This document shows positions 24,656-28,068 of a stretch of DNA of 36,989 nucleotides, piece after piece. This DNA comes from a virus: IMG/VR virus record IMGVR_UViG_3300009075_000011, positions 1-36,989 of that record. One strand, given 5' to 3'. Numbering within the stretch: the stretch's first letter is position 1; every line of letters starts with the position of its first letter. The notes below the pieces were generated by a model. It was given only the letters and a program-made list of their open reading frames with translations, searched no databases and had not been told where the DNA came from. The position numbers and the translations under genes are program-made.

Positions 24656-26077
24656 TCAGATAGCGTACCGATCCACCATCACCGTGTCAAGCATGATGGC
24701 TTCTGGTGTGAAGCGGTCAAAGTCAGCCTTCAGTACCCCTTGCATTACTGCTGGCGAGAAGCCCGAAATCAAAGCCACCCCTTGATCGTTGAAACGTGCA
24801 GGCACGTTGTCATACGAGTTCAGGTTCCAGAACACGATCTTTGGAAGCTCATAACCAGCAGCCTCGAATCGTGCGCGGGTAGCCTCAAGTGCCGATCCAC
24901 CAAACTTCGCGCAGGCATCGAATTGCATGTCCGACAGAATCAACAGCATGGTCGGCATGTCCTTTGCAGGCACCGCAAACGTCTTTGCGTGCGAAAGAAT
25001 CTTGTCCATCGCCTTCATCAGGTCGGTGTTCATCGCCCAGCTGGATTGAGCCATTTGGTCGATCTTGGACAGAACATTCCCCTTCAGATGCAGCAACTCA
25101 GGCGAACCCGAGAAGGTCAAGAAGGTGTCCTTGAACGCGCCACGGTTCTTGTCAGCAACGTACAGACCCAAAGATACCGCCACTTCAAGGCACGATACCT
25201 TCGTAGGCGACTTCCCCGCACCAATTGGGCAAGTCATGGAACCCGAAACGTCAACCATCGCCAGAACGTTGGTACCGTCCATGTAGTCAGGCAACGCTTC
25301 CCATTGCGACAGAATCACTTGTCCTTCAGCTTCGGACGGCGGGCGACCGTAAACGCCCATCAACCCTTGCAGAACTTGGTACGGGAAAACAGCACCTGCA
25401 TTCACCTTGTCCGTACCCTTTGCCAAACGTGCAGCATAGGCTTCGTATGCTTCCTTCGCGTTGCGATAGAAAGCACCCTTGTAGCGGGTCGATGCCAACG
25501 AAGGCAGCTTACCGAATTCGATCTTGTCCCATGCCTTCGCGCACATGAGAGTTTCAACCACGTTGGTCAGACCAACGAGAGTCTTGCGATATTGCTTTGG
25601 CGACATGCCCATGTACTCACGCAGGGCGATTGCGTCCTTACCCTTACGAGGCATCCACTTCGCTGCCAGGCCGTCACCAGCCAGAAGCGCCATGTGGATG
25701 AACGCGAACGCTTCTTCGCGAAGCTTTTCGTCATAACGAAACACCAGCAGGTCATCCCAACGACCAACTTCTGGAGTCTTGTACATCAGCGCCCTTGCGG
25801 CAGCTGGGTCGCGCACTTCCAGATATTGGAGAATGTCGCGGTAGATTTGACGTTCGCCAGCACCACCACGAACGTCACGGGCCCATTGCGCGAGGCGCAA
25901 TGCGACTTCGCGGTTTTCTTGCAAAGCCTTTGCGAACAAAGGCGTCACATCGCGACCGCGGGAAGCGCCGATCTGGTAGAACAGGTCTACAGTGGCCTTC
26001 AACGAACCAACGAATGCCTCCATGCCGTTGGTGGTAGTGGTACGTTCTGCACCGACATTGGTGACAAAAGTGTTCAT
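24656..26077 (-). CDS. Ro60-like TROVE/vWA RNA-binding protein (DUF2828-related)
   Basis: 473 aa from the ATG at 26077, chosen because AAGGAG lies six bases before it; an in-frame ATG at 26092 lacks an RBS. Residues ~15-250 form an all-helical region with ARDVRGGAGER and PEVGRWDDLLVF, typical of TROVE-like HEAT-repeat rings. Residues ~265-473 are a von Willebrand A domain with the metal-site residues DVSGS (D276, S278, S280) plus NTD and LSDMQFD. Ro60/Rsr proteins bind misfolded RNAs and Y RNAs and help exonucleases or RNA repair. Here a sigma70-type promoter and a ~300-nt structured leader precede the gene. Phage members are usually annotated only as TROVE or vWA proteins. RNA binding is inferred from the family. 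Confidence 0.85.
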   Translation of the reverse strand: MNTFVTNVGAERTTTTNGMEAFVGSLKATVDLFYQIGASRGRDVTPLFAKALQENREVALRLAQWARDVRGGAGERQIYRDILQYLEVRDPAAARALMYKTPEVGRWDDLLVFRYDEKLREEAFAFIHMALLAGDGLAAKWMPRKGKDAIALREYMGMSPKQYRKTLVGLTNVVETLMCAKAWDKIEFGKLPSLASTRYKGAFYRNAKEAYEAYAARLAKGTDKVNAGAVFPYQVLQGLMGVYGRPPSEAEGQVILSQWEALPDYMDGTNVLAMVDVSGSMTCPIGAGKSPTKVSCLEVAVSLGLYVADKNRGAFKDTFLTFSGSPELLHLKGNVLSKIDQMAQSSWAMNTDLMKAMDKILSHAKTFAVPAKDMPTMLLILSDMQFDACAKFGGSALEATRARFEAAGYELPKIVFWNLNSYDNVPARFNDQGVALISGFSPAVMQGVLKADFDRFTPEAIMLDTVMVDRYAI

Positions 26078-26098
26078 CATCATCTCCTTCATGTTAAC

Positions 26099-26424: not shown

Positions 26425-26793
26425 CTAACGCAGTCCTTCTTGTCTTGCCTTTCGCCTTAACACCTGGCGAGAAGGAATGTCTGCTGGCCGCACCAGTTGA
26501 GTCGGGTGACTCGGATTCGGCACAAATGCTGGGGAGACGAATCCTCGCTTATTGCGTCGTGCGATTTCTCGCTTACCTTGATGGGCAGCCCGTTGCTCAT
26601 ATTGCTTAGGCTTATACCACGCCCGCGCCGGAAGGTTCAATGCGCCCAGATCAAACAGGATCTTCTCCGCCATGTTGCCGATGATGGGCTTCACTACCTT
26701 CTTGCTCATTTCCTCGACGGCTGCATTGTTGCCGTCAATGATTTCTTCGGTAGTCACAACTTCACTCGCCTCTACTTTATTTTCATTATCCAT
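26425..26793 (-). CDS. Unknown 122-aa basic-tailed protein
   Basis: The ATG at 26793 is favoured because GAAGGA lies about ten bases upstream; an ATG at 26802 sits too close to it. The start lies inside the end of the methyltransferase gene. The N-terminal ~45 residues are acidic and the C-terminal ~60 are Arg/Lys-rich (KREIARRNKRGFVSP; RQVLRRKARQEGLR). No family is recognised; nucleic-acid binding would fit the charge pattern. Confidence 0.7.
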   Translation of the reverse strand: MDNENKVEASEVVTTEEIIDGNNAAVEEMSKKVVKPIIGNMAEKILFDLGALNLPARAWYKPKQYEQRAAHQGKREIARRNKRGFVSPAFVPNPSHPTQLVRPADIPSRQVLRRKARQEGLR

Positions 26794-27329
26794 GCGCCCC
26801 ATCCTTCAGTTTTATGTAGCATGATATCGTGTGCAGCAACGAAGGCATTCGTAACTTCCGTAGCCCCATCGCACCCATTTGCACCATAGTCATCCAATAC
26901 CATGATGCCACCTTTGACTAATCTAGGCCAGATGAAATCTAAACAGCCGTGATACGCGAGCCCAGAGTCAACGTCAATATGCGCCAATCTGATTTGCGAA
27001 CCCTCTAGACCAAAAAACGTATTTGGAATGATGCCTTCATGGATACACACATTGTCATGTGCATCCTGCAAGGCGCGGATCGCCTCAAATTCTGCCTCTG
27101 TTATCGCGAAACGGCCGTGCAGTTTCGGTTCGTCACCGATCCTTGGAATCCCGCCACCGAAAGTGTCGAACAAACGCAGCGTGGTAGGGCCGATGATCTT
27201 TAGCAACTCCATTGCCGAACCACCACGATAGACACCACACTCCCAAACTTCTCCGTCTAGGTGATTGGTGCCGATAGCAGACATCCTTAGTCGGGCAAGT
27301 TGTTCAGAACCGCAGATTGATTTCATCAT
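26772..27329 (-). CDS. TylF/MycF-type SAM-dependent O-methyltransferase
   Basis: 185 aa from the ATG at 27329 (another ATG follows at once; a TTG lies at 27335 in the end of the RNase P RNA). Motifs of the TylF family are present: VWECGVYRGGSA (SAM-binding loop), LRLFDTFGGGIP, AHIDVDSGLAYHG with the metal-binding Asp pair, and GGIMVLDDYG. Members methylate sugar hydroxyls or similar small acceptors in a metal-dependent reaction. In a phage it may decorate a virion or host glycan, possibly with the glycosyltransferase at 22943. No clear Shine-Dalgarno is visible, and translation starts immediately downstream of the structured RNA. Confidence 0.85.
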   Translation of the reverse strand: MMKSICGSEQLARLRMSAIGTNHLDGEVWECGVYRGGSAMELLKIIGPTTLRLFDTFGGGIPRIGDEPKLHGRFAITEAEFEAIRALQDAHDNVCIHEGIIPNTFFGLEGSQIRLAHIDVDSGLAYHGCLDFIWPRLVKGGIMVLDDYGANGCDGATEVTNAFVAAHDIMLHKTEGWGAWIMKIK

Positions 27330-27333
27330 GTTC

Positions 27334-27546
27334 AAAAAGGTGATTGGTGGCCGTAGCCGGGATTCTGTTCTATGCTACGATTTATCTTCGCCGCAACCCG
27401 AGCCAATAAGCAAGGAATTCCCTGGCTCTGTTTGCGTTGCTGGCTGTATCACGGTAGTGTCAATGACCGAAGTCTCCTACTCGTTCCTTGCGCCAGTCCC
27501 GAACTTCCTCAGAGATTGCTCTCCGCCGTAACTCGCCTGCCAATCA
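27334..27546 (-). ncRNA. rnpB: Miniature RNase P RNA encoded by the phage
   Basis: 213 nt. It matches bacterial RNase P RNA in order: CR-I GAGGAAGTTCGGGACT (27510-27495), CR-II AACGCAAACAGAG (27438-27426), CR-IV AGATAAAT (27387-27380) and CR-V ACAGAATCCCGGCTACGG (27368-27351). P1 pairs TGATTGG (27546-27540) with CCAATCA (27347-27341). P2 pairs GTTACG (27532-27527) with CGTAGC (27379-27374). P4 keeps the bulged U: AAG-U-UCGG with CCGG-CU. P5 is CTGGC/GCCAG and P7 is CGCAA/TTGCG. P3 and a GAGCCA/TGGCTC hairpin are present, but the ~150-nt specificity domain (CR-III, P8-P14) is essentially missing. The RNA ends in TTTTT. It is about half the size of the host RNA. RNase P removes tRNA 5' leaders. 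Confidence 0.92.
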
Positions 27547-27783
27547 TTAAGGCCCTGGATTATCTGTCAACTCACTTGGCTTAGGCACCACGTGCCATGG
27601 GTTCTTTTCTGCGTACCGGTACCCATCAAACTGTCGCCTCCCAAAATCTTCCGCAATCTCAGCAGAACTAAAAAGGTCTGGGTCAAATGCGCTGCCATAA
27701 TCCTGCCAATACAGACCCCACCAAGGCTTGACCTGAATCTTGTACCTATTCAAGCCCTCATGTCGAAGAATTCGCCAACGCAT
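27547..27783 (-). CDS. Small Trp/Tyr-rich protein, unknown
   Basis: 78 aa; the ATG at 27783 has AAGGA upstream. Its stop codon lies immediately before the P1 helix of the RNase P RNA, so the two must be cotranscribed and the RNA processed out. Aromatic-rich (KPWWGLYWQDYG; FDGYRYAEKNPWHVV). It reads like a small phage domain that binds a partner; no family is recognised. Confidence 0.75.
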   Translation of the reverse strand: MRWRILRHEGLNRYKIQVKPWWGLYWQDYGSAFDPDLFSSAEIAEDFGRRQFDGYRYAEKNPWHVVPKPSELTDNPGP

Positions 27784-27991: not shown

Positions 27992-28068
27992 TGGTAGGGG
28001 CGCCGGGGGTCGAACCCGAACCAGGGGATTAAAAGTCCGCTGTGCAGAAGCCGCTACACCACACCCCC
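27992..28068 (-). tRNA. tRNA-Lys(UUU)
   Basis: 77 nt with encoded CCA. Acceptor GGGGGTG/CGCCCCT (one G-T, one T-G), D-stem GTGT/GCAC, anticodon loop CTTTTAA (UUU), T-arm TCGGG-TTCGACC-CCCGG. One C-C mismatch in the anticodon stem. Confidence 0.92.

Follow-up and report, generated by a model that had tools for sequence, protein, structure and literature searches.

The RNA of RNase P belongs to a small number of near-universal ribozymes, and the literature searched describes its genes only in cells and organelles. CPR RNase P RNAs without P12 have been described. The RNA of E. coli has been reduced in the laboratory to its C-domain, which cuts without the specificity domain (S-domain), with or without the C5 protein and less efficiently, being about 500-fold less efficient than the full RNA on a model substrate; once the S-domain is gone, the RNA relies on a P6-like contact and can do without P18 (PMC5839562). 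In Pyrobaculum, whose minimal RNase P RNA is of type T/P (Lai et al. 2010, as cited in PMC4919922 and PMC12974513), most of the S-domain has been lost naturally. The conserved regions CR-II and CR-III are located in the S-domain (PMC4919922). For other megaphages, a scan with the whole of Rfam listed only tRNAs and a tmRNA (PMC8172020). In the full-text literature searched, a scope without bioRxiv and with few subscription papers in which earlier reports may have been passed over, neither a report of a phage-encoded RNase P RNA nor a bacterial or viral family like the S-domain-less (S-less) RNA analysed here was found. The phage family is apparently undescribed, and it probably escaped notice because its scores fall below the Rfam cut-off.

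The RNA gene and its catalytic domain

The window, that is the whole stretch of 36,989 nt which was analysed, is an IMG/VR virus record with T4-like genes (class Ia-type ribonucleotide reductase, gp61-type primase and baseplate proteins). An RNase P RNA-like element of 213 nt was located on its minus strand, running from 27546 to 27334. The parts of the element and its neighbours are as follows, where fractions of 60 refer to the distinct members of the family.

27992-28068, minus: nearest tRNA gene, tRNA-Lys(UUU), CCA encoded
27547-27783, minus: upstream ORF of 78 aa without family; its stop codon ends at 27547, adjoining P1
27334-27546, minus: entire S-domain-less class A RNase P RNA gene
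27540-27546, minus: P1 5' strand UGAUUGG, 7 bp with 27341-27347; relatives pair with other sequence
27527-27532, minus: P2 5' strand GUUACG, pairs with CGUAGC; relatives use other sequences (CUAAC/GUUAG, CUAUC/GAUAG)
27511-27524, minus: P3 hairpin GGAGA-GCAA-UCUCU, from the RF00010 alignment and position
27496-27510, minus: CR-I and P4 5' strand GAGGAAGUUCGGGAC; bulged U at core position 9 (27502), 60/60
27492-27496, minus: P5 5' strand CUGGC, pairs with GCCAG; 4/5 pairs covary
27484-27491, minus: P6 pseudoknot 5' strand GCAAGGAA, in J5/7; 8 Watson-Crick pairs with 27410-27417
27454-27480, minus: S-domain remnant, P7 and a mini-hairpin; P9-P14, CR-II and CR-III all absent
27477-27480 and 27454-27457, minus: P7 strands GUAG and CUAC of the remnant
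27465-27474, minus: mini-hairpin GAC-UUCG-GUC of the remnant
27428-27444, minus: P5 3' strand and CR-IV GCCAGCAACGCAAACAG; GCAA 60/60
27434-27436, minus: P15 5' strand CGC, with GCG 27392-27394; 3/3 pairs covary
27423-27428, minus: P16 5' strand GAGCCA, with UGGCUC 27400-27405; 6/6 pairs covary
27410-27417, minus: P6 3' strand UUCCUUGC, within the loop of P16/17; pairs with GCAAGGAA at all 8 positions
27395-27399, minus: L15 GGGUU (also given as CGGGUU); its GGU is the partner of the tRNA 3' CCA
27374-27379, minus: P2 3' strand CGUAGC, partner of GUUACG
27353-27369, minus: CR-V and P4 3' strand AACAGAAUCCCGGCUAC; P4 99.4% paired in 60 sequences
27341-27347, minus: P1 3' strand CCAAUCA, partner of UGAUUGG
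26772-27335, minus: downstream ORF, TylF-like methyltransferase (PF05711); start at or just inside 27335, the RNA 3' end

As read from the sequence, the window RNA keeps a complete catalytic domain, comprising P1-P5, the P6 pseudoknot, P15/P16, CR-I, CR-IV, CR-V and the CCA-binding L15. The catalytic core of the RNase P RNA superfamily (CR-I, CR-IV, CR-V and P4 with its bulged U) is present, and so is the P6 pseudoknot, a hallmark of class A, which joins J5/7 to the P16/17 loop. The GGU of L15 is common in bacteria, not universal. J15/2 reads GAAGAUAAAU. The RF00010 alignment and the structure reading revealed that P9-P14, CR-II, CR-III and P18 are missing; about 47 nt separate the P5 strands, and the distance from the P5 start to GCAA is 46-68 nt across members. 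A conserved internal-loop motif (GGGAG ... CGUUNNNAC) was observed around the mini-hairpin of the S-domain remnant (window 27454-27480, minus strand) and at the homologous sites in relatives.

The earlier note had proposed a miniature phage RNase P RNA that lacks the specificity domain, in which P1, P2, P4 with its bulged U, P5 and P7 can be read within 213 nt. These helices, and P3 also, were recovered on the minus strand, and the proposal is supported by the RF00010 match, by covariation in 60 distinct relatives and by the homologue in phage DLP_6. Of the four conserved regions that had been claimed, CR-I, CR-IV and CR-V were confirmed, giving three of five; CR-II is absent because it lies in the S-domain, which is deleted here. 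The string ACAGAG, probably taken for CR-II, belongs to CR-IV/J15-16. The hairpin GAGCCA/TGGCTC, which had been assigned as the replacement of P8-P14, is actually P16 and closes the loop of UUCCUUGC; the P16 and P6 pairings covary.

The Rfam check suggested in the earlier note was run, and the bacterial class A model RF00010 aligned to 27546-27337 over model positions 1-367, with the S-domain deleted, giving a significant match of 43.6 bits (E 2.3e-12), though under the curated gathering score of 100 bits. This shortfall is the reason why standard annotation overlooks the window RNA. RF00010 gave the top score of its Rfam clan for the element and was the sole RNA family in the 501-nt stretch scanned around it (cmscan, Rfam). 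Membership of the archaeal type T (Pyrobaculum) was rejected, the best clan match being bacterial class A. Other S-less copies also stayed below 100 bits with RF00010, the Gemmataceae MAGs and the Achromobacter contig reaching 70.8-82.7 bits and DLP_6 54.7 bits, a match sensitive to flanks which was absent with a short stretch and appeared with different flanks (cmscan). Some megaphage copies are not detected by the Rfam models at all, and one fits the archaeal model best, weakly (32.4 bits). The family covariance model R1 scored the window core (27353-27510) at 138 bits. The folding energy of the element was unremarkable (z = -1.7), which is expected because the RNA has two pseudoknots; thermodynamic folding was set aside as uninformative, and the case rests on the model match and covariation.

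Relatives, covariation and tRNA setting

Relatives were searched with two loose patterns over IMG/VR, followed by R1. The loose viral patterns gave 161 loci including DLP_6, and the 82 unconfirmed loci served as the control set. R1 confirmed 78 IMG/VR contigs of up to 494 kb at 58.6-149.6 bits, the next candidate scoring 15.6, and matched none of the full-length host RNase P RNAs tested. A homologue was found by blastn in the isolated Stenotrophomonas phage vB_SmaS-DLP_6 (168 kb), where it lies unannotated inside a tRNA array. Four megaphages carry the S-less RNA: LR756501 (735 kb), LR756502 (642 kb), LR756511 (595 kb) and LR745206 (635 kb). The RNA is a widespread family rather than a one-off. 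It was not found in the cultured tRNA-rich jumbo phages tested (XacN1, Atu_ph07, G, CcrColossus and RaK2) nor in KVP40, T4 and T5, and its distribution is patchy even among tRNA-rich phages, as such tested phages as XacN1, Atu_ph07 and G do without it.

Covariation in relatives, the second check that had been suggested, was strong; together with the significant, if sub-gathering, model match it removes two of the three refuting outcomes named in the earlier note. In 22 sequences two-sided changes occurred in 31 of 37 pairs, with 190 two-sided cells against 59.5 after shuffling (0/500) and 14-38 for slid structures. The 60 distinct members, which average 61% identity, raised this to 33 of 37 pairs and 543 cells against 177.5 shuffled (0/500) and 56-126 slid; 89% of cells were paired, compared to 62% shuffled and at most 43% slid. 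In P4, two-sided changes were present in 6 of 8 pairs. All eight pairs of P6 covary though P6 was left out of the model used for alignment. When counted without an alignment, J5/7 and the P16/17 loop share a block of five or more Watson-Crick pairs in 90% of members, against 16% (maximum 29%) in the control with re-dealt partners. RNAalifold, run without a supplied structure, recovered P4, P5, P7 and P15. The bulged U and the GCAA are invariant active-site elements, and the L15 GGU, which pairs with the tRNA CCA, is kept in 59 of 59 distinct members. Conservation reaches 98-100% at the A/G of AGAUAAAU and over most of CR-V, and CR-V positions overall lie at 93-100%.

The RNA lies between two coding genes in the same direction as the tRNA genes, as the earlier note had stated: the minus strand carries both flanking ORFs and all nine tRNA genes of the window, each of the nine with an encoded CCA end. 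A promoter-like site is located just upstream of the RNA (27570-27543), with the predicted start at or after the P1 5' strand; excision of the RNA from a polycistronic transcript, which the earlier note had held to be obligatory, is plausible. Across the family, tRNA genes were present at 71 of 79 RNA loci (958 tRNAs) compared to 1 of 82 control loci. Within 5 kb of the RNA, 775 tRNAs were on the same strand and 1 on the opposite strand, the nearest tRNA lying at a median of 39 nt. CCA is encoded in 574 of the 958 phage tRNAs. The megaphage copies of the S-less RNA have no adjacent tRNA genes.

Further genes were observed in these regions. The tRNA region of the window holds a phrog_850 'RNA-binding protein' (DUF7788/DUF2828) of 478 aa (24656-26092, minus strand), which may act as a partner in the quality control of tRNA or RNA. 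Some RNA-bearing phage contigs (L046, L105, L089) have tmRNA genes with the predicted tags DNKTRSSYGRNGNVADIALAS and ANPALALAA. The tRNAs with CUA anticodon in contigs L024, L036, L056, L089, L122 and L123 (tRNA-Pyl according to ARAGORN) are likely amber suppressors and suggest stop-codon recoding.

A GTDB-wide pattern scan gave 8 matches, of which 3 were real copies. One is in the assembly of a cultured strain, Achromobacter anxifer LMG 26857, on the 487-kb contig NZ_CAHLAR010000005.1 (L166), which has 32 tRNAs in 6.4 kb together with genes of phage type for topoisomerase II, RNA ligase, a kinase and thymidylate synthase. By these gene matches the contig is phage-like, probably a jumbo phage or phage-plasmid, and the normal RNase P RNA of this genome (202 bits) is elsewhere. 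The other two copies are in Gemmataceae MAGs (CALDUY010000005.1, L165 4561-4784; JANXSH010001016.1, L164 391-614), which also carry RnpA. The genes on both sides of one of these copies are ordinary bacterial ones (4-alpha-glucanotransferase, DUF58). No RNase P RNA other than the S-less form was found in these two MAGs, an absence that MAG incompleteness could explain; a full-length RNase P RNA above the cut-off was present in 34 of the 41 Gemmataceae genomes searched, the two S-less MAGs being among the 41. They are possibly cellular bacteria living on a minimal RNase P.

Proposed protein partner and function, and alternatives

RnpA (PF00825) was not found in 75 RNA-bearing phage records (the window, DLP_6, 71 from IMG/VR and two megaphages), many of which are fragments. 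The other two megaphages encode it. LR756502 has an RnpA at about 525186-525488 of LR756502.1 (L207 1435-1803; TIGR00188, 51.8 bits against a cut-off of 38.35), and LR745206 at about 76462-76740 of LR745206.1 (L212 1947-2294; PF00825, 49 bits against 22.3). The two proteins are 52% identical and both contain the RNR motif (FKRAVDRNRVKRLMRE and FKRAVDRNRIKRLMRE). With RnpA and the S-less RNA together, these megaphages encode the RNA and the protein component of a bacterial RNase P. The ORF beside rnpA of LR756502 starts with GGAIRDIIANMPIHDVDII, by eye like a CCA-adding enzyme head domain, with no Pfam/NCBIfam match. RnpA-like ORFs were also seen on two short phage contigs, L211 (IMGVR_UViG_3300028559_002034, 25 kb) and L213 (MT836084.1, 13 kb), in which the S-less RNA was not detected.

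What is established from sequence is the homology of the RNA, its structure and covariation, the conservation of its active-site residues and its linkage to tRNA arrays. These point to a genuine class A RNA which has lost nearly all of its S-domain and which, with RnpA, most likely trims the 5' leaders of phage pre-tRNAs. The RNA would be made with the tRNA/mRNA transcript and then released. It would bind bacterial RnpA, that of the host in most phages and their own in at least two megaphages; since most RNA-bearing phages are without RnpA, activity would depend on the host protein. The CCA end would dock in L15 with the acceptor stem at P4/J5-15, and the 5' leader would be removed. Without the S-domain, reading would be confined to the acceptor stem, the CCA terminus and, via RnpA, the leader, leaving out the tRNA elbow, and the RNA should therefore be less choosy about the shape of the tRNA body. 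The benefit would probably be secure tRNA maturation where the RNase P of the host is limiting, degraded or inhibited, or where tRNA-rich phage transcripts overload it. Against an active enzyme stand the missing RnpA of most of these phages, the many tRNA-rich phages that do without the RNA (XacN1, Atu_ph07, G, KVP40, T4, T5), the sub-gathering Rfam score, the position of the megaphage RNA away from tRNA genes, and the far lower efficiency of engineered C-domains.

Host translation is a frequent target of phages, and most RNA-bearing phages, being without RnpA, would compete for that of the host. The catalytic-domain fold might hence act as a decoy or inhibitor which, without cutting itself, titrates host RnpA or blocks host RNase P, thereby cutting the host tRNA supply. 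This is unlikely, as a decoy could dispense with a functional active site, whereas these RNAs conserve, or maintain by covariation, the bulged U, P4, GCAA, GGU and P15/P16/P6; the gene also sits in tRNA arrays that themselves require RNase P, and two megaphages bring their own RnpA.

A catalytic RNA acting on phage or host mRNAs, or on the tRNA-mRNA junctions of the phage's own transcripts, in place of canonical pre-tRNAs, was also considered. Substrate choice should relax on loss of the S-domain, and many ORFs and tRNAs of the window share one strand and presumably one transcript. The conserved CCA-binding loop (59/59), the mostly encoded CCA and the tight tRNA linkage point instead to tRNA ends, making such targets decidedly improbable. 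A decaying or captured host rnpB fragment without function, which the missing S-domain and the scores under the Rfam threshold might suggest, is refuted with near certainty because decay would not preserve helices by compensatory change, as the 60 distinct sequences do along with the active site.

Trimming of phage pre-tRNAs accordingly stays the preferred reading. In a broader view, favoured on balance, many phage lineages keep their own S-less RNase P, some megaphages have RNA and protein, and it is the sole form in some Gemmataceae. A natural viral version without the reader of the tRNA elbow would mean that the catalytic domain is selectable alone where genomes need tRNA processing, and tRNA maturation would join the functions that phages bring along. 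Through the family, structural and mechanistic work gains dozens of natural minimal ribozymes, and with the isolated phage DLP_6 the family is open to testing now.

Comparison with known systems

The window RNA shares CR-I, CR-IV, CR-V, P1-P5 and the P4 bulged U with the bacterial class A RNA (RF00010; E. coli M1 RNA), and also the P6 pseudoknot and P15/P16 with the L15 GGU. It differs from class A in lacking P9-P14, CR-II, CR-III and P18 and in its length of 213 nt. Like the Pyrobaculum RNA, it has naturally lost most of its S-domain; the Pyrobaculum RNA is an archaeal cellular gene with archaeal proteins, whereas the window RNA fits the bacterial class A model better. The bacterial RnpA (TIGR00188 / PF00825) accompanies the S-less RNA in megaphages LR756502 and LR745206 and is absent from the window.

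The engineered E. coli C-domain RNA (Eco CP RPR, PMC5839562) has the same helix set, an important P6-type contact and a dispensable P18. Its behaviour predicts that P6 is kept and P18 dropped; the phage RNAs fit, as they retain P6, often with 7-8 bp, and P18 is frequently missing. Eco CP RPR is a laboratory construct, while the phage architecture is natural, with a P6 of 5-8 bp and a small conserved P7/hairpin remnant, and unlike the host class A RNA the S-less family is phage-encoded in tRNA arrays.
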